Shown: one piece after another, positions 1,188 through 57,975 of the stretch
Position numbering within the stretch: the first letter of the stretch is position 1
How the letters are laid out: each line of letters begins with the position of its first letter
NCBI GenBank assembly: GCA_947172415.1
Contig: OX359194.1
Coordinates: forward strand, 5,084,001-5,148,000
DNA from: Chondrosia reniformis
Taxonomy: Eukaryota; Porifera; Demospongiae; Chondrillida; Chondrillidae
Length of the DNA stretch: 64,000 nt
Direction: 5' to 3'
Notes under the pieces: generated by a model
Database searches by the model: none
What the model was told of the DNA's origin: nothing
What the model saw: the letters and a program-made list of their open reading frames with translations, nothing else
Made by a program: the position numbers and the translations under genes

Positions 1188-4100
1188 TTATTTTGAAGAT
1201 TCTCCAACATTTTCATAAATATTGACTGTATCATAAGATGGATTGGTGTCCATTGCTATACCTGGAGCTTCATAGTCATGATCAGTAGACCTCCTAACAG
1301 TTTATAACATATACAATGTAAATGTACATATACGTATATGAATATACATATATGAATGTGTATGTGTACATACGTACGTATGTATGTTGTATATATTTCT
1401 GTACTATATACATATATTCAAGAGCATTGTGAGGTATATAATATTATTTTGAGAATGTTATAATCTAATTCTTCAGTTACTGAACTCTCCTGTACATGTG
1501 TTTACATGTATAGTCATAAGTTGGTTCTTTACAAACCTTAATTTGGATTGTTCACTCCTCTTCTGACATTTTTTCATATTTGGAGCTCCCCATACAATCT
1601 TTGTTGTTACACATGAAATAACAGCTCCAATCAACAAACCAACTACTACTCCACCAATACCAGCTCCAAGTGTCTGAGATAATATGGAATTACTGCAACC
1701 TGACATATTAATGTTCTCCAGGACTCCTAATGTAATGTATAAACAATCTGGAACATCTGAAATATTATTTTTGATTATCAGAAATATTTTGATTATCATA
1801 CCTATCAAGCTAAGGAAGCATAAAGGGATATATATAGATTAAAATCACAATTTAGGGCAAACCATCAACAATAATGGTTGGATTTCTTCTCTTTATTCTT
1901 CCACAGGAGAACGAAAAATATATATGTATGTGATAAGTACATTTAAGCTTTTACACAAAACAGAAAATTTACAAAGTGAAGTAAAATTCAATAGTATATA
2001 TATATATAGGTTAATTCACCACTGTATGTAGTTATTCCAATCACTTCACTCCATTCTCCATTTCCAACATCAGACACAGCTCTCACTCTCACTTGGTAGG
2101 AAGTTCCTCCTTGAAGACCAGTCAGTGTCACTGAAGTAGATGTAGGATTTGGACTCCATGTACTCCAACTACCGGAGGTACCCACTCTGTAGTCTAATTG
2201 ATAGTGTTGAATGGGATGTTCACTTGAAGGAGCTGACCATGTGACATTAAGTAATGGTTGATTTGAAGTCACCATTGGGGACACTGACACTCCAGTAACT
2301 TTAGATGGGACTAAGAGTAAATAATAAAATATAGCACTTCTTGTTTCAGTTGACAAAGCAATTATATAAAGTCTATATGGTTGATTTGAAGTCACGGATG
2401 AGGACACTGATAATACAGTAACTTTAGATGGAACTAATACATCATATGGGACTGATAGCTAATACCAAGAGAGTATATACATAAGAGATAAGATATTCCA
2501 TAATGTTAATCGTAATTGTCGGCTATATGAGAGTTGTAATGAGTCCAATGACTTCTAAGTGACTAATGAAATGGTTGATAGAGAATATTGCAGTGAAAAT
2601 CTATACGTATGTACCTTATATGGGTTTACTGAAAATATCCTACAGAAACTTTCTACTCTGTTACATAAATTATTACAGTTCCTAGGCCTGAGAGTTTGAA
2701 GCCTTATATTGGAAAGAAAACGATTTTTGCAATTAAGTGAAAAGAAAGTCACATTTAGCTAGATAATTAAGACAAGCTGTACTTCATTGATCAGTGGCTA
2801 CTACGTATATACGTAATTGATTGCAATTAAATTTGAAGTGTAGACTAGTTAATCTACATTTATAAAAGTATTTAGATAGATATAAGAAACCAATTGTGTG
2901 ACCAAGTACAACAAGTAAGTACAAGTACAAACGGTTTGCAAAACGTATTCTTTAAATGACCTTAGTAAACTGTAGTGTAGTGTATACTCTTAGGTACACG
3001 TGTATACATGCATAGATGTACTCTGTTCCGGAAGTTGCTTGAATGCCTATTTACATCAAGATGCATATGTACTCTATTGCTTAAGGGTGTCAGCTAAAAG
3101 TATAACCTTTAATTATTCTAAGACATCAATTAAATGAGATATCTGATCAATATAATATGAACCGATTGACATTTTATGTAAAGCACCGATATTTGAAGGG
3201 TCTGTATTGTATATATAGCTCCTTAAACCACATTGAACTCTATTTATGTATTGGCATGTAATAATTACAGTCAATATCAATATCCAAAGTTATGCGTGGG
3301 TCAAATGAGGAAGGGTCACGCGATATCCACATACGGTAACGTAATATACACAAATGGAGTTAAGGACAAATATTTGAAAAAGGATATTTTTTGTTTTTAG
3401 GTTCAAGATATTTTTGGATACCAAAGATTATAAAAGAGTAAACAGTAAAATTGTAAATTTGTTAGTAAAGGGCCCAGCCTAAAAAACTTACTACTGGTTT
3501 ACAGAGATTGCACCAAACATTATGTAATGACAAGGTTCCTACAACTTCTCATTCAATAATGTTAATGTTCAAATGACATCACTACTTTCCCATTGTACGT
3601 ATAATAATTCAAACGTTACATTCTATTGAGTCAAATCAAAGAGAAATAAGCCAGTGAAGGCTACTTTTCTACTTTATTAATTATGTAAACACTTTTAAGG
3701 CTACAAGATAGTAAATGTCATTATTGGTAGAGTGAATTTCTAAGTGTGGAGCACTGTACTAAGGATTGATATACGTATGTAGATAATGTAAAAGCATACT
3801 AACTATTGATGTATATCAAATTGTCTGTTTATACACACAAATATATCCTTTTCTGTAGCTATATAGTCATACAGTTATCACACATACTGTATAACATTTC
3901 CATTTACAAGACTAATTACAAGATACTTTTCTAACCTGCATTTTGCATTCTCATACTGTAAAGTCCTTGAACTCCAGCACCAAGGATTTCAGCTGCTACC
4001 CAAACATAGTAGGTGGTACCTGATTGAAGTCCAGTTAGTGTAGTTGATGTATCTGTAATTCCTGATCTCTTCATAGCATCAGATGGTGGATCTGTTTCAG

Positions 4101-7100
4101 TACCTCTATCAGTTGAATATCTAACTACAAAGCCTATTGCATACTTTGGATCAGTTCCAGTTACTGCAGTCCATGAAACAGTCAAGGATGTTCCATTTCC
4201 ACTTAACATGACACCTTGGACTTGAGATGGTGGAGTTATTGGAGTTACAGAAGGTGGAGTTTCTGTGTACATAAATGGTAAATGTTAAAAATGATTCTAC
4301 AACTTCTAACATAATCAATCAAACTGGAACTGATAAACAATTGAACTGTACACTTATAATATGATCCCTACAAGACTAATAGACTTTCCTATGCTGGCTT
4401 ATCATTTAAATGTTTCCTGCCTTATATAATAATACCTTTACGTAGACTTGGTTAATGAGACTTGAAAGGATTCGAATTATAAATTTTGTATTATATTTAT
4501 AGTTTTATAGTTGTTCTCATAACATTTATAACTTCTCTTTATGAAATATTATTGTTGTATTACTCACCTAGTATTACTGGATAAGTGCTAAGTGTAGTTG
4601 CAATAACACTACATGTACATGTGTATCCTTTAGCATGAGATGGACTGAATGATGAGATAGATAGTGTTCTGATAGCTCCAGCTGTAGTAGTAAGTTCTCC
4701 ATTAGTGGGAGTTACTTCAGTTCCATCAGTGAACCAGTTCTTTCCTATACGGTTCCTTTCACATTCCAACTGTACAGGTTGACTGAAGGAAGGTGTTATA
4801 GTGATAGGAGTAGTTGGATCAGTAGGCCTTCCAACTCTAATTGTGTTGATAGCTGATGGATTAACTACAGAATTTGTCAACAGAGACAAAAATTCAGTCA
4901 GTTCCATTAAATCAAGAAAATTAATCTTAATACTAATACTATAATATAATATATATTATGGCAGAAAAAGGAAACAAACTTACTGAAAGCTGCCATTCAA
5001 AAATACAGATAAGTCAAATGTTATTGTGTATGAATCTGTATGATAAATATTAATATGAGATGACCAATATAGTTAGAATAAAAACAATAGATGAAGACTG
5101 AAAATAAATTCCTAATGACTGTCACTAATATAAGATGGTTCTACATTCTAATACACAATCATGTATATACAGACACAATTCAACATTAATGATACCAGTT
5201 TACATCAAATTATTGTAAAGATTATCACATAATGACTCACCAAGTACCACAGGGTAGGTTGTCTTTGTTTGAGTATCACTAGGAGTAGATACCAAACAAG
5301 TGTATGTTCCAGCATGACTTTGAGTGAATGAAGAGAAAACCAATATCCTAGTAGGTCCAGAAGATGTACTTATTTCATTTGAAGTGGGTGTTACTTCACT
5401 TCCTGTAGTGTACCATTGTTTATTTACACCACTCCCAGTACACTGCAGTTCTACTGATTGACCAATGGTAGGTGTTACAGTGATGGTAGTAGTTTGAAAA
5501 GGACTGTTCGCTACTGTAATAGTAGTTGGTTGATATTTGGTTACCTGAACTGTAAGAAAATAAACATCATTCACTGTCTGATCAGTGTAGAACTGCAAGA
5601 AAATAAATGTTGATAGGGAATATTACAGAGACAATGCCTATGCCTTGAGAGTTTTAGGCCTTGAATCAGAAAGAAAATTTTTTTCATTAAGTGAAAAGTA
5701 AGTCACATTTAGCTAAGGATATTTAAGACAAACTGTATTTCATTGATCAGTAGCTACTATATATACAGATATACAGTAGTATTCAGTAGTATTCATTTTC
5801 AATTTAGTCAGTATAATTGATTACAATTAAAAGGTTCGCAAAACATACTCTTTAAATGACCTTAGTAAACTGTAGTGTACACACTCTCAGGTACAAGTGT
5901 ATACATACATAGATGTACTCTATTCCAGAAGTTGCTTGAATGCCTATTTACATCACGATGCATATGTACTTTATTGCTTAAGGGTGCCAGCTATAAATAT
6001 AACTTTTAATTATTCAAAGACTTTAATTAAATGAGATATCTGATCAATATAATATGAACCGATTTACATTTTATGTAAAGCACCGATATTTGAAGGGTCT
6101 GCATGCCGCTATCATACGTGTATATATACGTAGCTCCTTAAACCACACTGAACTCTATTTGTATATTCTCATACTGTAAGGTCCTTGAACTCCAGTACCA
6201 AGGATTTCAGCTGCTACCCAAACATAGTAGGTGGTACCTGATTGAAGTCCGGTTAGTGTAGTTGATGTAGCTGTAATTCCTGATCTCTTCATAGCATCAG
6301 ATGGTGGATCTGTTTCAGTACCTCTATCAATTGAATACCTAACTACATATAATATATCATACATTGGATCAGTTACTGCAGTCCATGAAACAGTCAAGGA
6401 TGTTCCACTTCCACTTAACATGACACCTTGGACTTGAGATGGTGGAGTTATTGGAGGTGTAGAAGGTGGAGTTTCTGTGTAAATGATAAATGGTTCTACA
6501 AATTCTAACTTAATCAATCAATCTGGAACTGATAAACAATTGAACTGTACACATATAATATGATCCCTACAAGACTAATAGACTTTCCTATGCTGGCTTA
6601 TCATTTAAATGTTTCCTGCCTTATATAATGATAGACTTGGTTAATGAGACTTCAAAGGAATATTAAAGTCACTTAGTGTAACTTCTCTTTATGAAATATA
6701 ATTGTTGTATTACTCACTTAGTATTACTGGATAAGTACTAAGTGTAGTGGCACTAAGTGAACTTGAAGTAACAATACATGTGTATCCTTTAGCATGAGAT
6801 GGACTAAATGATGAAATAGATAGTGTTCTGATAGCTCCAGCTGTAGTAATAAGTTCTCCATTAGTGGGAGTTACTTCAGTTCCATCAGTGAACCAGTTCT
6901 TTCCTATACTGGTCCTTTCACATTCCAACTTTACCGGTTGACTGAGGGAAGGTGTTATAGTGATAGGAGTAGTTTGATCATCAGCCCTTCCAACTGTTAA
7001 GGTGTTGATAGCTGATGGATTAACTACAGAATTTGTCAACAGAGACTCAGTTCAATTAAATCAAGACATGTACAATTGATTTAAAATATAAAGCAGAAAA

Positions 7101-8568
7101 AGGAAAACTGCCCTTCAAAAATACAGATAATTAAAGTGTTATTGTGTATGAATCCGTATTATATATAATATAAATATATGAGACGACCAGTATAGTTAGA
7201 ATAAAAACAATAGATTAAGACTAAAATAAATTCCTATAATGACTGTCACTAATATAAGATGGTTCTACATTCTAATACACAAGTATGTACAGACACAATT
7301 CAACACTAATGATACCAGTTTACATCAAATTATTGTAAAGATTATCACATAATGACTCACCAAGTACCACAGGGTAGGTTGTCTTTGTCTGAGTATCACT
7401 AGGAATAGATACCAAACAAGTGTATGTTCCAGCATGACTTGGAGTGAATGAAGAGAAAGCCAATATCCTAGCAGGTCCACCTCTTGTACTTATTTCATTT
7501 GGAGTGGGTGTTACTTCACTTCCTGTAGTGTACCATTGTTTACCTACACCAGTCCCAGTACACTGCAGTTCTACTGATTGACCAATGGTAGGTGTTACAG
7601 TAGTGGTAGTAGTTTGATCAGGAGTGGTCGCTACTGTAATAGTAGTTGCTTGAGATTTGGTTATCTGAACTGTAAGAAAATAATAGTCATTCATGGATCA
7701 TTGTCTGATCAGTGTCTATATACTAAACTTCAAAATAATAAATGCAAACTAACCATTTACTCCAGTGATTGATAGATTAGTTTTAAATTGGAGCTATCTG
7801 CAATGAAAATCAAGATAATGCTGATGAAGACCTACGGGTCGAAACATTCAATCTAGCTCGATTTTCGTTGCAGATAGCTCCAATAAACTTATCTATCATA
7901 ATGAACGCAACTAAAATTACTCCCTATCACTACACTGATTGTACATTTATATACCACCTCAGGCTGCCCCTGGTGGAAGAAGGCAGTCATTAGATTTCAA
8001 GGACAGACATCAAGCAGGCTGCCTTTGTAACATGTTATTCTAAACTATTTTAGTTCAATGTGGTGTGCCATATTTGGTGTGTTGCTGCTGTTTGTTTTAA
8101 ACTTTTTATGTATTATGGTTTAAGTTCTGACATTAACTAGTGCATGCTACTTTGAACCCTTTTTCTGTGTCCTATAGTGTGGTACACTTTAATAATGATT
8201 GATTGATATACATGCACCAAGAGGGGCCAATTCGATAAAGTAATAGCAGTAGTAATTGTTGGAAAGAAATGAAACAGAGCTAACATAATATACACAAATT
8301 CTGCGGCGAATATAGAACACTGACAGCGTCTAACAAATGCGGTAATGTGGTAGTCAGCAGTTATAATAATTATTCAAACACACATCGCCATTATTTTTAA
8401 AGGTCCGTTAGTACGAACATATAGATCACATATGACTGATTGGGTCAGTCAGGGATAATTTTAACTAAATTGGATATTTATCTATTATTATTAACTGGAC
8501 AAGTCATTTTACTCACCTTTAGCAACGAAAAGGACACACCAAATGAGGAGAGAAATCATAAGCGCCAT
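1188..8568 (-). CDS. Ig/FN3 type I membrane receptor, paralogue A
   Basis: Spliced gene read from sequence. Exons 5' to 3': signal peptide 8568-8517 (MALMISLLIWCVLFVAKG), Ig-a 7669-7361, Ig-b 7023-6718, distal FN3 about 6474-6163, Ig-a' 5549-5241, Ig-b' 4864-4568, FN3 4262-3936, FN3-c 2310-2020, membrane exon 1756-1537, tail 1293-1188. Ig domains keep the Cys, Trp and YTC positions. The membrane helix is rich in Gly, Val and Ile (GAGIGGVVVGLLIG). The tail holds DYEAP, NPSYDTV and YENV, candidate PTB and SH2 docking sites. All extracellular exons except the distal FN3 are multiples of three with 1-1 phases. The distal FN3 has no donor and meets an in-frame stop just after the domain, so it is either skipped (about 738 aa membrane form) or ends a short secreted form. 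The ligand is unknown; cell recognition is inferred from architecture. Confidence 0.82.
7771..7897 (+). ncRNA. Hammerhead-like ribozyme core in gene A intron 1
   Basis: CTGATGA at 7821-7827 is followed by a hairpin, GACC 7829-7832, loop TACG, GGTC 7837-7840, and then GAAA at 7841-7844. This is the arrangement of the two conserved hammerhead boxes around stem II. A 22-bp arm (7790-7811) pairs with 7860-7881 with one mismatch, and further pairing extends to 7771 and 7897, giving a stem I-like enclosure. The stem III and cleavage strand (around ATC 7851-7853) does not fit well, so activity is uncertain. The palindrome is absent from the equivalent intron of gene C, so it is an insertion. Confidence 0.5.
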
Positions 8569-8589
8569 GTTATAAGATTCCGGAGCTTG

Positions 8590-8893
8590 CATGTTATGTC
8601 TAGATTTATACATGAGACTTCTAAATCAAATCTGTGTAAGTTTCAAAAGAAATGATGGAATTCATGCAGACAATTTCAAAACAAACTTGTGTTTGATTGT
8701 CCTTAAAATGAAAATGGTTCTATATAACATGTTATGTCTACATCTATACATACATAATCTACTGTATTATAGTGAGACTTCTAAATCAAATTTGTGTAAG
8801 TTTCAAAAGAAATGCTGGAATTCATGCAGACAATTTCAAAACAAACTTGTGTTTGATTGCCCTTAAAATGAAAATGGTTCTATAACATTGAAA
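8590..8893. repeat. Two-copy direct repeat upstream of gene A
   Basis: A unit starting with CATGTTATGTCTA and running through CAAATTTGTGTAAGTTTC and GGAATTCATGCAGAC occurs at about 8590-8727 and again at about 8729-8893 with few differences. It lies just upstream of the gene A start codon and is not seen upstream of gene C. It may be a duplicated promoter-proximal element. The short open frames in it are byproducts of the repeat. Confidence 0.75.
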
Positions 8894-9027
8894 GTACATT
8901 ATATACTATCAATTGTCCACACTCTAATATAGAGAACTGACTTACAGCTGTAAATACAATTATTATGGCCTAATATGTTCACACACACATGATCAGCTGC
9001 TGGTAATAGTTATAGTGAATACGTTGG

Positions 9028-12000
9028 TTATTTTGAAGATTCTCCAACTTTTTCATAAATATCGACTGTATCATAAGATGGATTGGTATCCATTGCTATA
9101 CCTGGAACTTCATAGTCCTCATCAGTTGACCTCCTAACAGTTTAATAACGGATATATATACAATAAAATGGTACATACACTTATATACATGTAAGAATGT
9201 GTAAGTGTACATGTGTTGTACTTATTTGTGTAGTATATTAAATATTCAAGAGCATTGCGAGGTATACTGAGAATGTTATAATCAAATTCTTCAATTATTG
9301 AACTCTCCTGTACATGTGTTAGGCATACATGTATAGTCATAAGTTGGTTCTTTGCAAACCTTAATTTGGATTGTTCACTCCTCTTCTGACATCTTTTCAT
9401 ATTTGGAGCTCCCCATACAATCTTTGTTGTTACACATGAAATAACAGCTCCAATCAACAAGCCAACTACTACTCCACCAATACCAGCTCCAAGTGTCTGA
9501 GATGATATGGAACTACTGGAACCTGACATATTTATGTTCTCCAGGACTCCTAATGTAATGTATAAACAATCGGGAACATCTGAAATATTATTTTTGATTA
9601 TCAGAAATATTTTGATTATATATCATACCTATTAAGCTAAGGAAGCATAAATGGATATATAGATTATAAACACAATTTAGGGCAAACCATCAACAATAAT
9701 GGTTGGATTTCTTCTCTTTATTCTTCCACAGGAGAACGAAAGATATATATATGTATGTGATAAGTACATTTAAGCTTTTACACAAAACAGAAAATTTACA
9801 AAGTGAAGTAAAATTCACCACTGTATGTAGTTATTCCAATCACTTCACTCCACTAGTATTTGCCATGTATTATGGATACATACGAGTATTTGAAGTGACA
9901 ATCAAATCAAGTAATCATATTCAAACATCTTGAAGACACAAAAGATGGGAATCAAACCCAAGAGAGCTATAGTATGACCTTCATGTGAATATTTTTTAAT
10001 CATCCATACATACCATCATAAGTAGTCCCACTAACTGTATCACTCCATTCTCCATTTCCAACATCAGACACAGCTCTCACTCTCACTTGGTAGGAAGTTC
10101 CTCCTTGAAGACCAGTCAGTGTCACTGAAGTAGATGTAGGATTTGGACTCCATGTACTCCAACTACCAGAGGTATCCACTCTGTAGTCTACTTGATAGTG
10201 TTGAATGGGATGTTCACTTGAAGGAGCTGACCATGTGACATTAAGTGATGGTTGATTTGAAGTCACCATTGGGGACACTGACACTCCAGTAACTTTAGAT
10301 GGGACTAAGAGTAAATAATAAAATATATATAGCACTTTTTGATTCAGTTGACAAAGCAGGTATATAAAGTCTATATGGTTGATTTGAAGTCACGGATGAG
10401 GACACTGATAATCCAGTAACTTTAGATGGAACTAATACATCATATGGGACTGATAGCTAATACCAAGAGAGTATATACATAAGAGATAAGATATTCCATA
10501 ATGTTAATCGTAATTGTCTGCTATATGAGAGTTGTAATGAGTCCAATGACTTCTAAGTGACTAATGAAATGGTTGATAGAGAATATTGCAGTGAAAATCA
10601 GCAAAAATCTATATGTACCTTATATGGGTTTACTGAAAATATCCTACAGAAACTTTCTACTCTGTTACATAAATTATTACAGTTCCTAGGCCTGAGAGTT
10701 TGAAGCCTTATATTGGAAAGAAAACGATTTTTGCAATTAAGTGAAAAGAAAGTCACATTTAGCTAGATAATTAAGACAAGCTGTACTTCATTGATCAGTG
10801 GCTACTACGTATATACGTAATTGATTGCAATTAAATTTGAAGTGTAGACTAGTTAATCTACATTTATAAAAGTATTTAGATAGATATAAGAAACCAATTG
10901 TGTGACCAAGTACAACAAGTAAGTACAAGTACAAACGGTTTGCAAAACGTATTCTTTAAATGACCTTAGTAAACTGTAGTGTATACTCTTAGGTACACGT
11001 GTATACATGCATAGATGTACTCTATTCCAGAAGTTGCTTGAATGCCTATTTACATCAAGATGCATATGTACTTTATTGCTTAAGGGTGCCAGCTAAAAAT
11101 ATAACCTTTAATTATTTTAAGACATCAATTAAATAAGAAATCTGATCAATATAATACGTATTGATTTACATTTTATGAAAAGCACCAATATTTGAAGGGT
11201 CTGTATTGTATATATAGCTCCTTAAACCACATTGAACTCTATATATTGGCATTAAATAATAATTACAGTCAATATCAATATCCAAAGTTATGTGTGGGTC
11301 AAATGAGGAAGGGTAACGTAATATACACAAATGGAGTTAAGGACAAATATTTGAAAAAGGATATTTTTTGTTTTTAGGTTCAAGATATTTTTGGATACCA
11401 TCCAAAGATTATAAAAGAGTAAACAGTAAAATTGTAAATTTTTTAGTAAAGGGCTCAGCCTAGAAAACTTACTACTGGTTTACAGAGATTGTACCAAACA
11501 TTATGTAATGACAAAGTTTCCTACAACTTCTCATTCAATAATGTTAATGTTCAAATGACATCACTACTTTCCCATTGTACGTATAATAATTCAAACGTTA
11601 CATTCTATTGAGTCAAATCAAAGAGAAATAAGCCAGTGAAGGCTACTTTTCTACTTTATTAATTATGTAAACACTTTTAAGACTACAAGATTGTAAATGT
11701 CATTATTGGTAGAGTGAATTTTCTAAGTGTGGAGCACTGTACTAAGGATTGATATACGTACGTACGTAGATAATGTAAAAGCATACTAACTATTGATGTA
11801 TATCAAATTGTCTGTTTATACACTAATATATCCTTTTCTGTAGCTATATAGTCATACAGATAATCACACATACTGTATAACATTTCCATTTACAAGATAC
11901 TTTTCTAACCTGCATTTTGCATTCTCATACTGTAAGGTCCTTGAACTCCAGCACCAAGGATTTCAGCTGCTACCCAAACATAGTAGGTGGTACCTGATTG

Positions 12001-15000
12001 AAGTCCAGTTAGTGTAATTGATGTATCTGCAATCCCTGATCTCTTCATAGCATCAGATGGTGGATCTGTTTCAGTACCTCTATCAGTTGAATATCTAACT
12101 ACATATAATATATCATACATTGGATCAGTTACTGCAGTCCATGAAACAGTCAAGGATGTTCCACTGCCACTTAACATGACACCTTGGACTTGAGATGGTG
12201 GAGTTATTGGAGTTACAGAAGGTGGAGTTTCTGTGTAAATGGTAAATGTTAAAAATGATTCTAACATACTGGAACTGATAAACAATTGAACTGTACACAT
12301 ATAATATGATCCCTACAAGACTAATAGACTTTCCTATGCTGGCTTATCATTTAAATGTTTCCTGCCTTATATGTTACCTTTATGTAGATTGGTTAATGAG
12401 ACTTCAAAGGAATATTAGAGTCACTTAGTGTAACTTCTCTTTATGAGCTATAATTGTTGTATTACTCACCTAGTATTACTGGATAAGTACTAAGTGTAGT
12501 TGCAATAACACTACATGTGTATCCTTTAGCATGAGATGGACTGAATGATGAGATAGATAGTGTTCTGATAGCTCCAGCTGTAGTAGTAAGTTCTCCATTA
12601 GTGGGAGTTACTTCAGTTCCATCAGTGAACCAGTTCTTTCCTATACTGTTCCTTTCACATTCCAACTTTACCGGTTGACTGAGGGAAGGTGTTATAGTGA
12701 TAGGAGTAGTTTGATCAGTAGGCCTTCCAACTCTAATTGTGTTGATAGCTGATGGATTAACTACAGAATTTGTCAACAGAGCTAGACAATAATTCAGTCA
12801 GTTACATTAAATCAAGACAATTAATCTTAATACTAATATACTATAATAAAATATATAAAGAACAGCAGGATAAATAAAGTGTTATTGTGTATGAATCCGT
12901 ATTATATATAAATATACAATATGAGGCAACCAGTATATAGTTAGAATAAAAACAATAGATGAAGACTGAAAATAAATTCCTAATGACTGTCACTAATATA
13001 AGATGGTTCTACATTCTAATACACAATCATGTATATACAGACACAATTCAATACAAATGATACCAGTTTACATCAAATTATTGTAAGATTATCACATAAT
13101 GACTTACCAAGTACCACAGGGTAGGTTGTCTTTGTTTGAGTATCACTAGGAGTAGATACCAAACAAGTATATGTTCCAGCATGACTTGGAGTGAATGAAG
13201 AGAAAGCCAATATCCTAGTAGGTCCATAAGATGTACTTATTTCATTTGAAGTGGGTATTACTTCACTTCCTGTAATGTACCATCGTTTATTCCCTGTATT
13301 TGCACACTGCAGTTCTACTGATTGACCAATGGTAGGTGTTACAGTGATGGTAGTAGTTTGAAAAGGACTGTTCGCTACTGTAATAGTAGTTGGTTGATAT
13401 TTGGTTACCTGAACTGTAAGAAAATAAACATCATTCACTGTCTGATCAGTGTAGAACTGTAAGAAATAAAAGTTGATAGGGAATATTGCAGAGACAATAC
13501 ATATGCCTTGAGAGTTTTAGGCCTTGAATCAGAAAGAAAACAATTTTTCATTAAGTGAAAAGTAAGTCACATTTAGCTAAGGATATTTAAGATAAACTGT
13601 ATTTCATTGATCAGTAGCTACTATATATACAGATATACAGTAGTATTCAGTAGTATTCATTTTCAATTTAGTCAGTATAATTGATTACAATTAAAAGGTT
13701 TGCAAAACGTACTCTTTAAATGACCTTAGTAAACTGTAGTGTAGGTACACTCTTAGGTACACGTGTATACATGCATAGATGTACTCTGTTCCGGAAGTTG
13801 TTTGAATGCCTATTTACATCACAATGCATATGTACTCTATTGCTTAAGGGTTCCAGCTAAAAATATAACCTTTAATTATTCTAAGATATCAATTAAATGA
13901 GATATCTGATCAATATAATATGAACCGATTTACATTTTATGTATATAAAGCACCGATATTTGAAGGGTCTGCATGCCGCTATCATACGTGTATATATACG
14001 TAGCTCCTTAAACCATATTGAACTCTATTTGTGTATTCTCATACTGTAAGGTCCTTGAATTCCAGTACCAAGGATTTCAGCTGCTACCCAAATATAGTAG
14101 GTGGTACCTGATTGAAGTCCAGTTAGTGTAGTTGATGTAGCTGTAATTCCTGATCTCTTCATAGCATCAGATGGTGGATCTGTTTCAGTACCTCTATCAG
14201 TTGAATACCTAACTACATATAATATATCATACATTGGATCAGTTACTGCAGTCCATGAAACAGTCAAGGATGTTCCACTTCCACTTAACATGACACCTTG
14301 GACTTGAGATGGTGGAGTTATTGGAGTTACAGAAGGTGGAGTTTCTGTGTAAATGGTAAATGTTAAAAATGATTCTAACATACTGGAACTGATAAACAAT
14401 TGAACTGTACACATATAATATGATCCCTACAAGACTAATAGACTTTCCTATGCTGGCTTATCATTTAAATGTTTCCTGCCTTATATGTTACCTTTATGTA
14501 GACTTGGTTAATGAGACTTCAAAGGAATATTAAAGTCACTTAGTGTAACTTCTCTTTATGAGCTATAATTGTTGTATTACTCACTTAGTATTACTGGATA
14601 AGTACTAAGTGTAGTGGCACTAAGTGAACTTGAAGTAACAATACATGTGTATCCTTTAGCATGAGATGGATTGAATGATGAGATAGATAGTGTTCTGATA
14701 GCTCCAGCTGTAGTAGTAAGTTCTCCATTAGTGGGAGTTACTTCAGTTCCATCAGTGAACCAGTTCTTTCCTATACTGTTCCTTTCACATTCCAACTTTA
14801 CCGGTTGACTGAGGGAAGGTGTTATAGTGATAGGAGTAGTTTGATCATCAGCCCTTCCAACTGTTAAGGTGTTGATAGCTGATGGATTAACTATAGAATT
14901 TGTTAACAGAAACAATAAATCAGTCAGTTCCATTAAATCAAAACATGTACAATTGATTTATAATATATAGTAAAGCAGAAAAAGGAAGCTTACTAAAAGC

Positions 15001-15312
15001 TGCCATTCAAAAATACAGATATATAATTAAAGTGTTATTGTGTATGAATCCGTATTAAATATAAATATAAATATATGAGACAACCAGTATACGTAGTTAC
15101 GTGTAGAATAAAACAATAGATTAAGACTAAAAATATATTCCTATAATGACTGTGACTAATTATAAGATGGTTCTACATTCTAATACACAATCATGTATAT
15201 ACAGACACAATTCTCACTAATGATACCAGTTTATATCAAATTATTGTAAAGATTATCACATAATGACTCACCAAGTACCACAGGGTAGGTTGTCTTTGTT
15301 TGAGTATCACTA
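9028..15312 (-). pseudogene. Ig/FN3 receptor paralogue B, 5'-truncated
   Basis: Exons 5' to 3': truncated Ig-a 15312-15272, Ig-b 14890-14585, distal FN3 14344 to about 14033, Ig-a' 13413-13108, Ig-b' 12760-12470, FN3 12230-11910, FN3-c 10304-10014, membrane 9579-9360, tail 9133-9028 (DYEVP, NPSYDTV, YEKV). Full-length extracellular exons other than the distal FN3 are multiples of three, and the downstream exons are open and close to gene A. Homology stops abruptly at 15,312 inside the first Ig domain. No signal-peptide exon follows before gene C, so the copy cannot give a normal secretory receptor unless another 5' exon is used. The distal FN3 lacks a donor as in gene A, so that lesion predates the A/B duplication. 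Confidence 0.75.
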
Positions 15313-15495
15313 GAAAGAAGTCTTCGGTGCCAGAGGAGAGAAAACTTGTATCCCCTCTGCATGTCTTCTCTAACTCTCAAGGTGCTATAGTGACCTGGCT
15401 AATTAAATAGTGATTGATACTAAATTCTAATGGTTTTAGTAGTACATTTGCATTTTATAAAGTTTCAATTTATGACGATGACGATGACGATGACG

Positions 15496-15527
<32 letters not shown>

Positions 15528-15559
15528 CGATGATGATGATGATGATTAATGATGATGAA

Positions 15560-15599
<40 letters not shown>

Positions 15600-16078
15600 G
15601 TGATGGATGATGGCTGTAGAAGGTTAATATAGGACAACAGTGTTTAAAGTATAAAATCATTTTGCATCAAATGTCCAGAGAACTCTAACCTTTATACGTA
15701 CATATACTATAGCCTATATACGTAATTTGTTCACACACATGTTAGTGCTAGTTGCACATAGTTATTGCAAATTAAGATATTAAGTTAAAGATTCTTCATA
15801 TTATAAAGATGGATGGATGGTATAACAACCCATACATGTAGGCATATAAATACATTGTCATCGGCAGACATTTTGGTATAACTTATAAAATTATGTACAG
15901 GACAACAATATATTATTATTATATGCTGTTCTAAGTATATAAATTATATATTATAAAATGCTCATACTCTAATATAGAGAACTGACTTACAGCTGTATAT
16001 ACAATTATTATGGCCTAATATGTTCACACACACATAATCAGCTGCTGCAGCTGGTTATAGTTATAGTGAATACGTTGG
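15313..16078. repeat. B/C junction with GATGAT microsatellite
   Basis: Unique sequence from 15,313 replaces the missing 5' part of gene B. It is followed by an imperfect GAC/GAT trinucleotide array at about 15,473-15,610. From about 15,850 the sequence becomes the conserved 3' flank of gene C. Open frames of Ser or His runs here are translations of the microsatellite, not genes. Confidence 0.8.
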
Positions 16079-19000
16079 TTATTTTGAAGATTCTCCAACT
16101 TTTTCATAAGTATTGACTGTATCATAAGATGGATTGGTATCCATTGCTATGCCTGGAACTTCATAGTCCTCATCAGTAGACCTCCTAACAGTTTAATAAC
16201 GGATATATATACAATAAAATGGTACTTACACTTACATGTAAGAATGTGTAAGTGTACATGTGTACTTATTTGTGTAGTATATTAAATATTCAAGAGCATT
16301 GTGAGGTATACTGAGAATGTTATAATCAAATTCTCGAGTTATTGAACTCTCCTGTACATGTATTAGGCATACATGTACAGTCATAAGTTGGTTCTTTACA
16401 AACCTTAATTTGGATTGTTCACTCCTCTTCTGACATCTTTTCATATTTGGAGCTCCCCATACAATCTTTGTTGTTACACATGAAATAACTGCTCCAATGA
16501 ACAAACCAACTACTACTCCACCAATACCAGCTCCAAGTGTCTGAGATGATATGGAACTACTGCAACCTGACATATTAATAGGTTTATATAACTACCTCTT
16601 TGCATATACGTATATACTACAGGTTCCACCACATATTGATTTTTCAATATATTTATGCAAATCCACAAACTTTTGTATGAGGTGATACAGACTGTTTGTT
16701 GTGTTCAGAATGGCAATTGAAATGGTTGAGTATCAGCAACAAAAAGTGTTTTAACAGATATTGAACACAAAGAGGTCCTCAACAGTAATGAATGCAGAGA
16801 GGTATAAGCTTAAGGCTTAAATAGAAAATGGTTTATGCATTAAAGGGTGGTGGGAAAGAGTGATGATGTATGTTTTAGTGCGCCTAATAATAACAAAGAT
16901 AAAATGAATAATTTAAAACTGAATATAATAGCATGCGTCAAAAAAGTATATACGTACGTATGTCATTCCAGATCGTGCACTAAAATCAATAATTAATACA
17001 TAAACTTAGCCTTCTAAACCTTACTATCAGGAATTGTTGAAAACATCACCATGGTAGCATCAGGTCCAGTTCCATAACTATTAATAGCAGCTACAGTAAA
17101 ACTGTATGTCACTCCAGTCATCAGATTATCCAATAATGATTGAGTTTCTACTTCAATTCTCTTGTTCTTTGGACTTGATGGATCACTACTTAACTGGTAC
17201 GTTATCAAATATCCTGTTATTACTCCGTTTTGGTCCTTCTCAGCTGGTGGATCCCAACTAAAAATGGCTGATACACTGGAAGGTTCTGCTCTTAGATTAA
17301 GAGGAGGTCCACTTGGTACTATATTTATGTACAAAAAAGAAGTAATCAATGATATCATACACTAATACTGCATGGAATACTGCAAATTACAGCAAAACAA
17401 ACTCTCTCATATTTCCCTGTAATATAAGTGAAGTAAGTAATGAAGCAGGTGTGAGTTGTTTGTCACTGCGATCATATATAAATGGATAGCATTTATTGTG
17501 AGAATGCAGCAAAAGTAAGTATATTCAAATTAAAAACAAAAATTTATATGCACAATAGCATAATAACACACTCACTTTCTGAAGGCATTCTTATAGTGTC
17601 CATGTTAGAATCACAAGATTCATCTCCATTTGAAGATGTACATTCAATAGTGTAAGTAACATAAGGACTTAAACCATTCACTGTATACTGTAATACTGTA
17701 TCAGTTACAGTCTTTGGAGACAGACCACTCACAGTTGTATATAGATATAGTACACTTGTAAGTAAGAGAAGATGATAGAGCTGGTGCAGTGAGTGTGATG
17801 ATGAGTTGTGTTGAGTAACTGGCTGACAGTGAAGATACTGAAGGAGCTATAGAAAATGGAAAATAATTAGTTTCATCCTATTACAAAATAAATGCATGTG
17901 GAATTGTACATCACAAAATGGAAGCCATTTCAATTCTATAAACTCTCCTTAACCATTAATTCAGACACTTAATTTATACATACTATGGACCCGCTCCATT
18001 ATATATAAATATGTATGTATACGATAATAAATAATAATTGAGTTCTGAGGAATATAGGAGATACTAGACAGTAAATCAATGAACCATAAACATTGAAAAT
18101 GACAAGGTATATAAATACAGAGTTGAAAGTTGAATAATCCTATATTCTGCCATTCCAGATATAATTGCAATTGCATGGATGTCTTAGAACCTGGAGCATT
18201 TTTCTGCCAGGTATGAAAATTAGTTGGTACTAATGCAGTTTCAAAGAAAATAGGTAATTAGATTACTGCAACTATTTCTGGAATTCTGTTGCATTTGGCC
18301 TCATCCAATCTCTCTTGTATGTATGGGTAACACCCTCCCAACTATATATATTATGTGGTATGTAATTGTATACAGATATTGGTCACATACGTATGTATAC
18401 CATCCTCCCACACTGTCTAGGATATTACCTTGTGGTCTAGTTCTTCCTGTTCCTGTCACTTCTCCACCATCTCCCAAGTCATTGAAAGCTACTACTCTCA
18501 CTGTGTACTGTGTGTTAGCTGTTAGACCATTCCATGTAGTAGTAGAAGTAGTTATATTTGAATGTATTAATGTACTATCTATGTACACTTTATACTTGAC
18601 TGGTAGTCCTCCAGTGTTAGATGGTGCTGTCCAAGTAACCATCAGTTGGTCACATGATCCAGATGGAGGAGATATCATGAGGTTAGTGGGAGCACCTGCG
18701 ACTACATGTATATAATTATAAAATATAAGAGACTCATAATATATTATTTTCAGCATTTAATAGCAAACCACTAGATGTATGTACAAGTTAACCATATAGT
18801 ATGTATTACATCTAATGTAAACTAGTATTTGTCATGTATTATGGATACATACGAGTATATATGTATATGAAGTGACAATCAAATCAAGTAATCATATTCA
18901 AACATCATGAAGATACAAAAGATGGGAATCAAACCCAGGAGAGCTAGTATGACCTTCATCTTAATATTTTTTAATCATCCATACATACCATCATAAGTAG

Positions 19001-22000
19001 TCCCACTAACTGCATCACTCCATTCTCCATTTCCAACATCAGACACAGCTCTCACTCTCACTTGGTTAGAAGTTCCTCTTTGAAGACCAGTCAGTGTCAC
19101 TGAAGTAGATGTAGGATTTGGACTCCATGTACTCCAACTACCAGAGGTACCCACTGTGTAGTCTACTTGATAGTGTTGAATGGGACGATCACTTGAAGGA
19201 GCTGACCATGTGACATGAAGTGATGGTTGATTTGAAGTCACCATTGAGGATAGTGACACTCCAGTAACTTTAGATGGTCCTAATTATAAGATTAAGTAAT
19301 AAAATGTAGCACTTCTTGATTAAGATGACAAAGCAAGTATATAAAGTCTATATGGTTGATTTAAAGTCACGGATGAGGACACTGATAATTAAATGGAACT
19401 AATACATCATATGGGACTGATAGCTAATACCAAGAGAGTATATAAGAGATAGGATATTCCATAATGTTAATTGTAATTGTCGGCTATATGAGAGTTGTAA
19501 TGAGTCCAATGACTTCTAAGAGACTAATGAAATGGTTGATAGAGAATATTGCAGCGACAATCAGCAAAAATCTACAAGCCTTTATATCAGAAAGAAACTA
19601 ATTTTTAATTAAGTGAAAAGTAAGTCACATTTAGCTTAGGACAATTAAGACAAACTGTATTTCATTGATCAGTGGCTACGTATACTATATACGTACGTAT
19701 ACTATATACGTACGTATATAGTATTCAGTCAGTTTAATTGATTGCAATGAAATTTGAAGTGTAGACTAGTTAATCTACATTAAATTTATAAAAGTATTTA
19801 GATGGATATAAGAAACCAATTGTGTGACCAATTGCAAGTACAACAAGTAAGTACAAGTACAAAAGGTTTGCAAAACGTACTCTTTAAATGACCTTAGTAA
19901 ACTGTAGTGTACACTCTCAGGTACACGTTTATACATGCATAGATGTACTCTAAAGTTGCTTGAATGCCTTTAAACATCAAAATGCATATGTACTTTATTG
20001 CTTAAGGGTGCCAGCTAAAAATATAACCTTTAATTATTCTAGATCTAAGACATCAATTAAATGAGATCAATATACATAATACGTACCAATTTATATTTAA
20101 TGTAAAGCACCAATATTTGAAGGGTCTGACACTATTGTATATATAGCTCCTTAAACCACATTGAACTCTATTTATGTATTGGCATGAAATGATTACAGTC
20201 AATATCAATATTCAAAGTTTTGTGTGGGTCAAATGAGGAAGGGTCACGTAATATACACAAATGGAGTTAAGGACAAATATTTGAAAAAGGATATTTTTTG
20301 TTTTTAGGTTAAGATATTTTTGGATACCATGCAAAGATTATAAAAGAGTAAAAAGTAAAATTGTAAATTTGTTAGTAAAGGGCTCAGCTTAGAAAACTTA
20401 ATACAAGATTGTAGAGATTGCACTAAGTAACAACAAACATTAACGACAAAGTTTCTTGCAACTTCTCATTCAATAATTAATGATGTTCAAATGACTACTT
20501 TCCCATTGTATGGAATTCAAAAGTTACATTCTCTTGAGTCAAACAATAGATTATGTAAACACTTTTAAGACTGCAAGAGTGCCAACATCATTATTGGTAG
20601 AGTGAATTTTCTAAGTGTGGAGCACTGTACTAAGGATACACGTACGTACGTAGATATAATGTAAAAGCATACTAACTATTGATGTATATCAAATTGTCTG
20701 TTTATACACACAAATATATCCTTTTCTGTAGCTATATAGTCATACAGTTAATCACACATACTGTATGACATTTCCATTTACAAGATTAATTACAAGATAC
20801 TTTTCTAACCTGCATTTTGCATTCTTATACTGTAAGGTCCTTGAACTCCAGCACCAAGGATTTCAGCTGCTACCCAAATATAGTAGGTGGTACCTGATTG
20901 AAGTCCAGTTATTGTAATTGATGTATCTGCAATCCCTGATCTCTTCATAGCATCAGATGGTGGATCTGTTTCAGTACCTCTATCAGTTGAATATCTAACT
21001 ACATATAATATATCATAAATTGGATCAGTTACTGCAGTCCATGAAACAGTCAAGGATGTTCCACTTCCACTTAACATGACACCTTGGACTTGAGATGGTG
21101 GAGTTATTGGAGGTGTAGAAGGTGGAGTTTCTGTGTAAATGGTAAATGGTTCTACAAATTCTAACATAATCAATCAAACTGGAACTGATAAACAATTGAA
21201 CTGTACACTTATAATACGATCCCTACAAGACTAATAGACTTTCCTTTGCTGGATTATCATTTAAATGTTTCCTCCCTTATATGTTACCCTTATGTAGACT
21301 TGGTTAATGAGACTTCAAAGGAATATTAAAGTCACTTAGTGTAACTTCTCTTTATGAACTATAATTGTTGTATTACTCACCTAGTATTACTGGATAAGTA
21401 CTAAGTGTAGTGGCACTAAGTGAACTTGAAATAACAATACATGTGTATCCTTTAGCATGAGATGGACTGAATGATGAGATAGATAGTGTTCTAATATTTC
21501 CAGTTGTAGTAGTAAGTTCTCCATTAGTGGGAGTTACTGCAGTTCCATCAGAATACCAGTTCTTTCGAATTATTATATGGGTCCTTTCACATTCCAACTT
21601 TACAGGTTGACTGAGGGAAGGTGTTATTATAGTGATAGGAGTAGTTGGATCAGTAGGCCTTCCAACTCTAATTGTGTTGATAGCTGATGGATTAACTACA
21701 GAATTTGTCAACAGAGACAATAATTCAGTCAGTTCCATTAAATCAAGACATGTACAATTGATCTATAATATATATAGTAAGGCAGAAAAAGGAAACAAAC
21801 TTACTGAAAAATACAGATAAATAAGTGCTATTGTGTGTGAATCAGTATTATAAATATAAATATATGAGACTACCAGTATAATTAGAATAAAAACAATAGA
21901 TTAAGACTAAAATTAAATTCCTAATGACAGTTACTATATAAGATGGTTCTACATTCTAATACACAAGCATGTACAGACACAATTCAACACTAATGACACC

Positions 22001-23198
22001 AGTTTACATCAAATTATTGTAAAGATTATCACACTAATGACTCACCAAGTACCACAGGGTAGGTTGTCTTTGTTTGAGTATCACTAGGAGTAGATACCAA
22101 ACAAGTGTATGTTCCAGCATGACTTGGAGTGAATGAAGAGAAAGCCAATATCCTAGTAGGTCCAGAAGATGTACTTATTTCATTTTGAGTGGGTGTTACT
22201 TCACTTCCTGTAGTGTACCATTGTTTATATACATCACTCCCAGTACACTGCAGCTCTACTGATTGACCAATGGTAGGTGTTATAGTGATGGTAGCAGTTT
22301 GAAAAGGAATAGTTGCTACTGTAATAGTAGTTGGTTGAGATTTGGTTATCTGAACTGTAAGAAAATAAACGTCATTCACTGTCTGATCAGTATCTACTCA
22401 ACTTCAAAATAATAAATGCAAAATAAATTTTTAAAGAATTTCCATTTACTACACTTATCCATCATAACGAATTCGAATACAGCTAAAATTACTCCATATC
22501 ACTACACTGATTGTACATTTATATATACATATATGCGTACCACCTCAAGCTGCCCCTGGTGGAATTAGAAGTCAGTCATTGGATTTCAACTTTCTCTTAC
22601 TTAGCGTAAAACATTGAACGAACGAAATGAAATTTAAAACCAACCTTACTAATACTATGCGTTTTCTGCAAGATATGGTCTTGAAATTGACGTACGGCAA
22701 TCAAGCAACGACCGGAATCGGTTAACCGGATATCTAAGAACCAGCAAGTAGTTCGAGTTTTGAGGGGGCCAGGCACCCCACGAGTTTTTTTAAACTCGAA
22801 ATACTTGTTTTTGTGTCCTATAGTGTGGTATACACTTTAATAATGATTAATTGATATATCTACATGCACGAAGAGGGGACAATTCTATATAGCAGTAGTA
22901 ATTGTTGGAAAAAAATGAAACAGAGCTAACATATTATACACAAATTCTGCGGCGAATATATAGAACACCGACAGCAACTAACAAATGCGATAATGTGATA
23001 GAGTCAGCAGTTATTCAAACACACATCGCCATTATTTTTGAAGGTCCGTTGGTACGAACATATATAGACAGGTCAGTTAGGGATAATTTTAACTGAATTC
23101 GATATTTATCTATATTATAACTGGACAAGTCATTTTATATACTTACCTTTAGCAACGAAAAGGACACACCAAATGAGGAGAGAAATCATAAACGCCAT
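16079..23198 (-). CDS. Ig/FN3 receptor paralogue C, one frameshifted exon
   Basis: Exons 5' to 3': signal peptide 23198-23147 (MAFMISLLIWCVLFVAKG), Ig-a 22354-22046, Ig-b 21695-21381, FN3 21130-20810, FN3-c 19279-18989, FN3 18695-18429, FN3-like 17846-17576, FN3 17318-17025, membrane 16566-16404, tail 16184-16079 (DYEVP, NPSYDTV, YEKV). It has one Ig-Ig-FN3 unit where A has two, plus three FN3 exons absent from A and B. The 17846-17576 exon is 271 nt, the only full-length module not divisible by three. An apparent 4-nt TATA-type insertion near 17,735-17,745 breaks its frame. Since all neighbours are phase 1-1, skipping that exon would restore a protein of about 705 aa. The membrane exon is shorter than in A and B and uses a new acceptor in the right phase. 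Expression is unknown. Confidence 0.72.
22745..22808. repeat. Short hairpin element, copy 1
   Basis: CAAGTAGTTCGAG at the left pairs with CTCGAAATACTTG at the right around a G-run/C-run inner stem (GGGGGCC and CACCCC). A second copy lies at 38811-38865. It sits in gene C intron 1, in a stretch that replaces sequence present in gene A. It could be a tiny MITE or a conserved structured element. Confidence 0.65.
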
Positions 23199-33774: not shown

Positions 33775-36700
33775 TTATGCTGGCGGATAAGCTGCATTGG
33801 AGGCAGCAGTGGGATAAGGAGGCAAATCATCCACTCCTTTTTCAGATGACATGTAAGCTGGCAAATCTTTAGTCTTATCTTCAGTAGTAGTTTCTTGTCC
33901 GACTTTTTCATGCTCAGTGATGTTTTGATAACTTGGAGGTGCATCCTCCGTTAGCTCTGCATTATTAGGTTGCGCTTCATGCCTATTGTCATCACCATTT
34001 TCAGGCAAATCTTCTGGTGGTTCGTAACCAAGTCCTGTAGCAGGTAATTCAGAAACTTCAGTTGGACCACCTTGTGATGTTGCATAGCTAGTTCCTCTTC
34101 TTGACCACAAGTTGGAAATAGCTGTTCTAGGTGAGTCAAAACAATCACAGTCTAAGCCATTTTTCTCTTTAAATGCTATGTAGCCACCAATGATGAAAGG
34201 CAATACAAAACCAAATGTGACAAGGGTCATCACAATGATAGCAGTAATACCTCCACTTGTGATGCCTGTAGGTAGATAGGCAGGGAATTAAAACTCATTT
34301 TCCATTCCAAATCAATGATATACGTATGTAATACAAAAAGTACATTTTAGATTACTCAAACTACGTATGTTCATCCTTACACTGCTAAAACATAAAATAT
34401 AGCTAGTTAAAAATTACATTTTTGAATCAAACATTTAAGGGCATTACAGCTGTAATAAGGCTTAAAGGAAATAGAAAGGTATGTACATCCCCAAAAAATA
34501 AATTATGTTTTTGACTATAAATAAATAAATTCAATCCGTTTGAGATGTTTCACTGTGTTATACGTACAGTACATGCATATGCGTATATAGTCATTTCATA
34601 TAAGGGTTAGCTAACCTAATTCTTCTGGTGCATTGTGAGATCTCATACAAGTGATTTCAAGAAAATTGCCAGCTTGACACTGAACTGGAACTCCAATTGG
34701 TCCATTATCCTGGCAGTCAAGTACACTTTCCTCTGTACCTCTGCAAGAAAACATACTTCCCCAAAGAGGATGTGTAATCTGAACTCTGTACAACACAGCA
34801 GAGAATGAAAATGGTTGGAGATCATGTGACAGGAAGTGTGGATCATGTGACAGGAACTAATATAGGCATTAAATGGCTATACAAAGGACTTGAAAGCAAT
34901 AACAGTATACAATAGTTTTGAAATGTATAGAAAAGTAGGAATGAATAGGTAGGAAACAATTGGATTAGTTATGTTAAAGACAAATATTGAGCATCAGAAT
35001 TTCTGATTGAGACCTCCGGGACAGCATTAAAGAACATAATAATCGAAAGAAAGTATATCCTTTTATGTATTAAATATAGAAACATTGATGACGACTAATA
35101 TGGTAGGCGCAGCAACTTCAGTTGCAGTAGGTATAGGCACAGCAATTCTTAATACTATCATGTTTGCTATATCGTAAAAGTTAAACTACGTACATATAAC
35201 AATTTATGACAAAATATTATACATTTTAAAATACACACTACAGCAAAAACAGTGTAGTTCTGTTACACTTACGAAAGAGAGCTATTGGTAGCTACTCCTC
35301 CATCATGAAAACCAAGTTGTCGACAAATTACATTCTCTTCATTACCACCAATACTTGAAGTGTAGCACAAAGATCCCCATCTATACAGTATATTGCAGTA
35401 CAATTTAATCATCTCAAGAAGTCATAGACGTCAGTATGGAATAGGTTTGGATGAAGCTTACAGTGGGCTATAACTACACTAGTTTGTGTAAATTCTAATA
35501 AATCAGGTTCTCCGTAAATGCTACATTATGGAGGTTGTCAGTCTATAGAAAACTGATATTAGCAAACATTTCAACTGGTGCTAAATTAACTGAACATCTT
35601 GAAGGAATGCAGTAATAATGATATTATATATGACTCCTTTCACTGGCTACATGTCATAACCATGTACAAGCAGTCCTCCATTTGGTTAAAACTTGTTTTG
35701 TTAAATTTTACTGGCTGGTTTGTAAAGTTAGGATTTATCATACTGTTTGATAACAAACAAAAGAGATCCCATCCAGTTTAGTTAGGGAACTTAAATTTGT
35801 AGAAGGAAATGATTCATCATTCAACTTAACACTGGCTTCCTAAGGATTCTGGTTTATAGGTACAATAGCTTGATTGCACAGGTTTCACTGTATATACCTT
35901 CCTTCATAGAAGACCTCAACTATTCCATTTCTACCTCCAGTTATGACCCCAGCTCCTGAATCAATCAACCTCATAGCTCCACTGACATCATTACCACTGT
36001 CACACTCTACAACAGCCTCTTCCAATTGCATCCTAGAAGACTCTCGGGTATTGCATTGTGAAAAACTATGATAGTTTGCTTGACAAGATACAGAGTCGTA
36101 GGATATTGAATTATCAGCTGTGAAGCTATAACACAAAAATAAGTACATCCCTATCTGAATAATTTACAAGATAAATCATAACAGAAAATAAAACTACGTA
36201 TGCATGTTTACAATAACTTTAACTATCATGAAGGATTCACAGAAGATCAAGATAAAGAAAAAGACAAAGACTCCCAGGTTCACTGATGAAGGGTGGAATT
36301 CCCAGAAACGGCTGTCTGACCCAGTGGAGAAGAAGATGAAAGAAGGGAAAAGACTCCTGTATCTCCATCCAAAGCTCTCTTTAGGTTTAGTTACCCTATA
36401 GGCTCTTTTACAGAATAGGCAGAGCATGTAGGAAAATGGCATCTTAGATTTTTCATGTGACAAATATAGTATAAAATAGTAGACCATAAGGTCTAAAGCC
36501 ACTTCTAAGCTTTGAATGCTAAAACTTTCAAGGAGAAGACAAGTGGGATGATAAATCTAGAGATTTTGCCTTATATGGTATGACATAATTTGTTAGTTAA
36601 CACTCCATTGTATAGTACACCACCCAATCAGGAGTACACAACACTGGGTCACTTCCTGGATAAAGTACAATGACCTAAGGGAAGTACTGAAATTAGGATT

Positions 36701-57821: not shown

Positions 57822-57975
57822 TCTTCCCCTGTATATCTGTCTGTCTCTCCCCCCTCCTGCTCCCTCCAACTCTTCTTGGCCCTTGGCATATTAGTAATAA
57901 ATATTGTTCAGTTACTAGATAATTTTCTCATTTGTAACTTGCACTGTGTGGTACTTGATTATGTATATATATATA
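57822..57975. other. 3' flank of N4BP2-like gene
   Basis: A short C/T-rich stretch precedes AATAAA at 57896-57901, a likely polyadenylation signal for the N4BP2-like transcript. Confidence 0.55.

Follow-up and report, generated by a model that had tools for sequence, protein, structure and literature searches.

A window of 64,000 nucleotides (nt) from the sponge Chondrosia reniformis (assembly GCA_947172415.1, contig OX359194.1, positions 5,084,001 to 5,148,000 of the forward strand; all positions below are those of the window) carries, within positions 1188-23198 of its minus strand, three tandem paralogous genes, A (23198-16079), B (15313-9028) and C (8568-1188). These genes quite probably form a tandem cluster of recent origin, which encodes type I receptors with a single membrane pass and with immunoglobulin (Ig) and fibronectin type III (FN3) domains, and which evolves by duplication, exon loss and truncation. 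Three adjacent paralogues had been recognised in a preliminary description of this DNA, and a comparison of the window with itself bears this out, as it found repeated blocks, 82-94% identical, between 1 kb and 23 kb (matches of at least 150 bases, E at most 1e-20) in a stretch without any N. The duplication is beyond chance.

The Ig and FN3 modules were likewise recovered by Pfam. The fn3 family matched four stretches of A (E 2.4e-47) and I-set matched C (E 8.6e-22); in both genes fn3 and I-set/Ig_3 exceed their cut-offs, and the Ig1 exon of A passes when scanned alone, with I-set and Ig_3 above the cut-off and V-set below it (23.4 bits versus 26). Two further models, FN3_DSCAM and Pur_ac_phosph_N, score above their cut-offs in A; the Pur_ac_phosph_N match lies over FN3a, and we take it to reflect a domain like FN3 rather than an enzyme. 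Among solved structures, the chains closest to A in sequence (best 60 of 87) were LAR-type receptor phosphatases, Dscam, neogenin and contactins, and those for Ig1-Ig2 (best 60 of 77) were titin and DCC. Single Ig exons, Ig1 of A and Ig2 of C, were modelled with AlphaFold from an alignment of nine domains of the window, and the best mean pLDDT values (predicted local distance difference test), 70.8 and 69.6, are middling, two of the five Ig1 models reaching only about 34. The 50 Foldseek matches listed include Ig domains of Dscam, NCAM (for Ig1) and titin as well as V domains of antibodies; the fold is therefore that of an Ig domain, and its subtype is not settled by the fold. A search of viral structures also returned Ig folds (29 matches at E at most 0.001), which were judged generic and left unused. 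Confirmed relatives were found neither in viral contigs (queries: A, the nine Ig domains and a neighbouring collagen) nor in genome contigs (query: C), collections that cover no eukaryotes, and this result carries little weight.

Gene models and exon symmetry

The models were rebuilt from splice sites and reading frames on the minus strand. Each spliced model is a single frame with one terminal stop, of 707 residues for A, 738 for C and 643 for B; FN3d is left out of A and a donor-less FN3a exon out of B and C, and the start of B is assumed at 15362. Hydrophobic runs for a signal peptide and a transmembrane segment were found in A and C by a hydrophobicity scan, and these two genes show the generic features of Ig-superfamily type I receptors (a signal peptide, then Ig and FN3 domains and a single transmembrane helix), whereas B has no signal exon.

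Gene A opens with a signal-peptide exon of 52 nt (23147-23198, MAFMISLLIWCVLFVAK, donor GTAAGT), followed by Ig1 (22046-22354, 309 nt, phase 1-1) and Ig2 (21381-21695, 315 nt), the latter with two additional residues in the BC loop and one ahead of the first Cys. Its FN3 exons are FN3a (20810-21130, 321 nt), FN3b (18989-19279, 291 nt) and FN3c (18429-18701, 273 nt), each recognised by Pfam; FN3d (17576-17846, 271 nt), whose frame is broken and which, scanned by halves, gave a weak fn3 match under the cut-off in its second half and none in its first; and FN3e (17025-17318, 294 nt), which has a better-scoring acceptor nearby. A transmembrane exon (16404-16566) and a tail exon complete the gene. 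A is set apart from B and C by FN3c to FN3e, with no counterpart of FN3c or FN3e found in B or C by self-comparison, and by the 5' part of its transmembrane exon, which is unlike theirs. On this model A is plausibly a working receptor, in which Ig1-Ig2 would be followed by four readable FN3 domains.

Gene C is composed of a signal-peptide exon (8517-8568, 52 nt), Ig1 (7361-7669, 309 nt), Ig2 (6718-7023, 306 nt), the donor-less FN3a (6155-6474), a second pair Ig1' (5241-5549, 309 nt) and Ig2' (4568-4864, 297 nt), an FN3a with two additional residues (3936-4262, 327 nt), FN3b (2020-2310, 291 nt), a transmembrane exon placed by splice sites and frame (1537-1756) and a tail exon. C, too, is plausibly a working receptor, and its ectodomain probably has four Ig and two FN3 domains if the donor-less FN3a is skipped. 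Gene B has the same order from its first Ig2 onwards: a cut Ig1 (15272-15313, of which only the last ~42 nt are left, with homology ending at 15313), Ig2 (14585-14890, 306 nt), the donor-less FN3a (14025-14344), Ig1' (13108-13413, 306 nt, with the most divergent BC loop), Ig2' (12470-12760, 291 nt, with a shortened FG loop), FN3a (11910-12230, 321 nt), FN3b (10014-10304, 291 nt), a transmembrane exon modelled in the same way as that of C (9360-9579) and a tail exon. The models therefore uphold the statement that domain number and type differ between A, B and C.

A signal exon common to all three genes had also been proposed; a search allowing up to three mismatches found it in two of the three, A and C, but not in B. 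The 0.8 kb upstream of B was scanned for phase-1 exons that run from an ATG to a GT and encode a hydrophobic stretch. There is no candidate, while the scan does recover the signal exon of A, and the assumed start at 15362 gives no hydrophobic run. Between A and B, near the truncated 5' end of B, lies an (ATG)n microsatellite (15472-15612, 46 copies, 84% matches), possibly a weak point for rearrangement or for assembly. Because its first Ig exon is cut beside this microsatellite, B is taken to be, probably, a 5'-truncated relic.

In B and C alike, a common deletion has taken away the 3' end and the donor of the first FN3a, and the exon is fused to the intron and reads on to a stop (IHK-stop in B, IYK-stop in C). 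Weak in-frame GTs, at 14108 and 14045 in B and at 6238 and 6175 in C, would give an exon of 237 or 300 nt, with scores of 6 and 5 of 9. Signals of the poly(A) type are also present: C has AATAAA at 5975 and ATTAAA twice, and B a single ATTAAA at 13876. Skipping of the exon, with the frame kept, appears the likeliest outcome; splicing through a weak GT could also occur, or the exon could be terminal and yield a secreted form.

As the preliminary description had it, every extracellular exon that is full-length and keeps both splice sites is, in the gene models, a multiple of three in phase 1-1 (17 of 17), with one domain per exon; four further extracellular exons, FN3d of A, the donor-less FN3a of B and of C, and Ig1 of B, are not intact. 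The first exon scan reported only lengths divisible by three, and the splice sites were rechosen without that filter. Among the 17 exons the modelled donor was the best or joint best in every case and the acceptor in 14, nine of these tied, a different AG scoring higher in FN3e of A and in Ig1' and Ig2' of B. All 17 exons thus have the form of class 1-1 exon-shuffled modules (one domain per exon, phase 1 flanks), with the acceptor caveat for three of them. Symmetric exons of this kind would make the loss or skipping of a module harmless to the frame, and to this extent the earlier argument stands; it does not extend to a special device for diversity, for this is an ordinary property of such genes. 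The pattern is expected because the exons are homologous copies of animal Ig and FN3 modules, and class 1-1 is given as the rule for such modules in animal exon-shuffled proteins in a passage of PMC8001218. Splice-phase symmetry was rejected as evidence of immune diversity on that same passage, class 1-1 being standard there (PMC8001218).

Rearrangement, divergence and loop variability

The Ig1-Ig2-FN3a block is duplicated internally in B and C and not in A. Furthermore, the 40-nt 3' end of FN3b of C (2014) survives in B as an isolated remnant (9813-9852), a second FN3b end in that gene; therefore, a second FN3b probably once existed. The cluster had been called recombining, and the breakpoints agree with that word: the internal duplication, the common donor-removing deletion, the fused FN3b end in C and the truncation of B. 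The substitutions add no clear support. A test for mosaic substitution gave p 0.0003 before thinning, that is, before clustered and gap-adjacent sites were removed, and p 0.12, 1.0, 0.79 and 0.67 in the four quartets afterwards; because the signal is lost, clear mosaic gene conversion is not supported.

Non-coding divergence among the copies is 6.7-10.9%. Indel lengths are divisible by three in all six exonic cases versus 5 of 36 intronic ones, which indicates that the frame has been held under selection. The exonic indels fall mainly in loops: four are in Ig1 BC, Ig2 BC and Ig2 FG, one lies before the first Cys of Ig2 in A, and one follows a strand in FN3a, a position we take to be the BC loop.

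A check of dN/dS (nonsynonymous to synonymous rates) in the Ig exons had been recommended. Of the 29 extracellular pairwise comparisons, 18 give a value above 1, as does one of six from the transmembrane or tail exons; the comparisons overlap and the counts are small. When 18 of the 35 rows of the pairwise table were pooled, one copy per exon per gene pair, the ratio of nonsynonymous to synonymous proportions (pN/pS) of the extracellular exons was about 1 (1.14, 1.09 and 0.92). The difference between pN and pS is not significant for the ectodomain as a whole (p 0.66, 0.71 and 0.74), so that pervasive positive selection is not supported. The ratio is lower in the transmembrane and tail exons, but this contrast with the ectodomain is not significant either (p 0.19, 1.00 and 0.52).

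Variable columns are enriched in parts of the Ig domains. In the Ig1 BC segment, from the B-strand Cys to the C-strand Trp, 7 of 8 columns vary versus 18 of 94 elsewhere (p 0.00017), and in Ig2 the BC and FG loops together have 12 variable columns of 22 versus 15 of 82 (p 0.0012), FG alone being weak (p 0.012). No enrichment was found in Ig1 FG (1 of 12), in Ig1 BC and FG together (p 0.07) or in Ig2 BC alone (p 0.079). A scan statistic that counts gap columns gave p 0.03 for Ig1, 0.05 for Ig2 and 0.02 for FN3a, where the cluster sits at truncated ends; leaving gap columns out gave p 0.20, 0.40 and 0.79. Compared with the introns, Ig1 BC has an excess of changes when all four copies are included (14 in 21 sites versus 105 in 568, p 3e-6), and none when the copy of B is removed (5 in 24 sites versus 82 in 590, p 0.37); Ig2 BC and FG do not exceed the intron rate. 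The loop pattern is suggestive of a diversifying surface, and the hypervariability rests largely on one copy, that of B.

Several points weigh against reading A, B and C as a young receptor cluster. Ig2' of B, the sole Ig2 exon scanned alone, falls under every curated Pfam cut-off (best Ig_3, 23.2 bits versus 30). The splice choices were made from sequence and not from a transcript, and another acceptor scores higher in 3 of the 17 exons. In A the frame of one FN3 exon is broken and in B the signal exon is missing, while extracellular pN/pS values near 1 would fit decaying copies too. All of this comes from a single assembly, in which a haplotype could have been misplaced, and the adaptor binding proposed below is argued at the level of motifs.

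Tyrosine tails and candidate functions

The tail exons lie at 16079-16184 in A (YEVP, NPSYDTV, YEKV, stop), 9028-9133 in B (YEVP, NPSYDTV, YEKV) and 1188-1293 in C (YEAP, NPSYDTV, YENV, stop). Each encodes a tail of 34 residues, 29 of them invariant, and the NPSY motif is present in three of three genes. The length and the NPSY are as first described, but the three further tyrosine motifs that were counted beside it are not there, since the tyrosine of NPSY is itself one of only three in each tail. The consensus for immunoreceptor tyrosine-based activation and inhibitory motifs (ITAM, ITIM) is a pair of YxxL/I or [SIVL]xYxx[ILV]; patterns for these two and for the corresponding switch motif (ITSM) match none of the three tails.

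The likeliest task of such proteins would be cell-cell or cell-environment recognition, or adhesion signalling. In the proposed scheme, the ligand of the outer Ig domains would sit on a second cell, on a microbe or in the matrix, and once it is bound the tail tyrosines could be phosphorylated by a separate kinase. By general motif rules, NPSY might then recruit a PTB adaptor, and YxxP, joined in C only by YxN, might recruit SH2 adaptors; through this YxN site C may couple differently from A and B.

On present evidence the cluster is an ordinary kind of receptor family, and a fast-changing one. There is appreciable room, though well short of an even chance, for the alternative that the genes are ordinary adhesion or guidance-like receptors with NCAM-, LAR- or Dscam-like ectodomains, chance duplicates that drift without any self/non-self or immune role. 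The near equality of pN and pS in the ectodomain and the broken exons are in line with drift, as are the closest solved chains listed (LAR-type phosphatases, Dscam, neogenin, contactins, titin and DCC) and the FN3_DSCAM match of A with an adhesion role. The frame constraint on exonic indels argues against pure decay, and not against adhesion. The ectodomains of Dscam, NCAM, contactin and LAR-type phosphatases, which are among the best sequence or fold matches listed from the PDB, share with the cluster the order of Ig followed by FN3; however, identities are 12-26% among the listed PDB fold matches, and the cluster has no tyrosine phosphatase domain and no mutually exclusive exon array was seen in it.

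A role for the genes in immunity or in the sensing of symbionts, with an expansion like those of other pattern-recognition families in sponges, is unlikely, although an involvement in immunity has been discussed for sponge genes with Ig and FN3 domains (PMC6208332). Sections of that paper cite Ig-like and FN3 genes as commoner in low-microbial-abundance sponges and report Ig- and FN3-domain genes regulated both up and down after microbial cues; Ig and FN3 are described in combination with expanded SRCR domains in part of PMC4772301. In Amphimedon, tandem SRCR arrays hold 158 of 296 genes according to a passage of PMC10855680, which also describes recent tandem duplication and domain numbers that vary per gene; these are points of likeness to the cluster, whose domains are Ig and FN3 in place of SRCR. 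Against an immune role, the case for it comes from domain content alone, the tails contain no ITAM or ITIM, and the Pfam matches of A and C include neither a TIR nor a death domain. The Ig-bearing receptor tyrosine kinase and the Ig-type adhesion molecule of Geodia cydonium, surface molecules discussed for adhesion or recognition in parts of PMC12018476 and PMC11999971, are comparable in that respect; the cluster differs from them, as compared by description, in having no kinase (Pfam, A and C), a short tyrosine tail from a tail exon of 34 residues, and tandem paralogues.

A self/non-self role is possible, and the genes for self/non-self discrimination in sponges are, to our knowledge, not settled. 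In the form of an allorecognition (histocompatibility) locus resembling Alr, whose polymorphic Ig ectodomains would be compared between touching individuals and whose tails would trigger fusion or rejection, this role appears quite improbable. Hydractinia Alr comprises clustered Ig receptors, with polymorphic ectodomains in Alr1 and Alr2 and many pseudogene-like members, as set out in a portion of PMC11067881, and the likeness drawn in the preliminary description holds for clustered single-pass Ig receptors with pseudogene-like, non-functional relatives nearby. It does not extend to membership of the Alr family, which is not supported: Alr is described with V-set and I-set domains in a section of PMC11999971, whereas Ig1 of the cluster is below the V-set cut-off, and the cluster has FN3 domains and much closer paralogues, a comparison made by description and with no sequence compared. 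The enrichment of variable columns in Ig1 BC and in Ig2 BC and FG favours allorecognition, but Ig1 FG is not variable, the tests of Ig1 BC with FG, of Ig2 BC alone and of the gap-free scan are not significant, and the loop excess over introns hinges on the copy of B. Moreover, a paper on grafts in Amphimedon (PMC5450542) has in its main text three mentions of aggregation factor and none of immunoglobulin, Ig domain, Ig-like, fibronectin or receptor tyrosine. The cluster is not of the aggregation factor type either. The domain set of sponge aggregation factors is Calx-beta, VWD and Wreath, and these are absent from the Pfam matches of A and C at E at most 0.1, with the limit that Wreath may not be in Pfam.

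It is very unlikely that B and C represent a single gene whose two haplotypes the assembler placed end to end. They do share the internal duplication and the FN3a deletion, and the 5' end of B stops near the microsatellite. However, non-coding divergence between B and C, 7.4% in the first unit and 8.4% in the second, is no less than that between A and C1 (6.7%), their FN3b ends and tails differ, and the window has no N. Most improbable of all is a sponge self/non-self cluster with a built-in switch, in which the donor-less FN3a of C would have two possible fates. As a terminal exon it would yield a secreted Ig1-Ig2-FN3 decoy of 328 residues including the signal; if it were skipped, the product would be a signalling receptor with four Ig domains. 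In-frame indels would meanwhile diversify the BC and FG loops of the Ig domains.

No tandem Ig/FN3 cluster of this type was found for a sponge in a search of the open-licence literature by title and start of abstract. A compact, rearranging cluster of candidate receptors offers a concrete locus for testing polymorphism and graft linkage. If the genes are ordinary, the cluster still shows how fast modules of Ig/FN3 receptors can be added, lost or broken within a single animal genome.

Neighbouring genes and repeats

Beyond the cluster, a probable SRCR receptor gene lies at 33775-38000 of the minus strand. Of its five open reading frame (ORF) pieces scanned, one exceeds the SRCR cut-off of Pfam, two have weak matches and the other two have no match; downstream of them is an ORF with a hydrophobic run and a tail rich in PPSY, PPAY and PPYP, without a Pfam match. 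A short collagen-type gene is present in two copies on the minus strand, at 46465-47256 and 50984-51779, within repeated DNA that is 85-92% identical. The first copy, the only one scanned, matches Pfam Collagen, and in the second the coding sequence is divided between a pair of overlapping ORFs whose frames differ. We take the short-chain collagen pair and the SRCR gene beside the cluster to fit a sponge. Between the two collagen copies, on the plus strand at 48172-49942, are ORFs that look like reverse transcriptase by eye, two pieces of which were scanned without a Pfam match.

On the plus strand at 44222-58000, DUF1771 and Smr exceed their Pfam cut-offs in pieces that are not shown to form one gene, and which we presume to be a possible N4BP2-like gene; the large ORF at 44222-45607 of the same strand has no Pfam match. 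A pair of 1.5-kb repeats, 84% identical and in the same orientation, occupies 55257-56737 and 62484-63987, and a perfect 11-bp tandem repeat of 5.8 copies (TATTGCATGTG) is found at 40709-40772.

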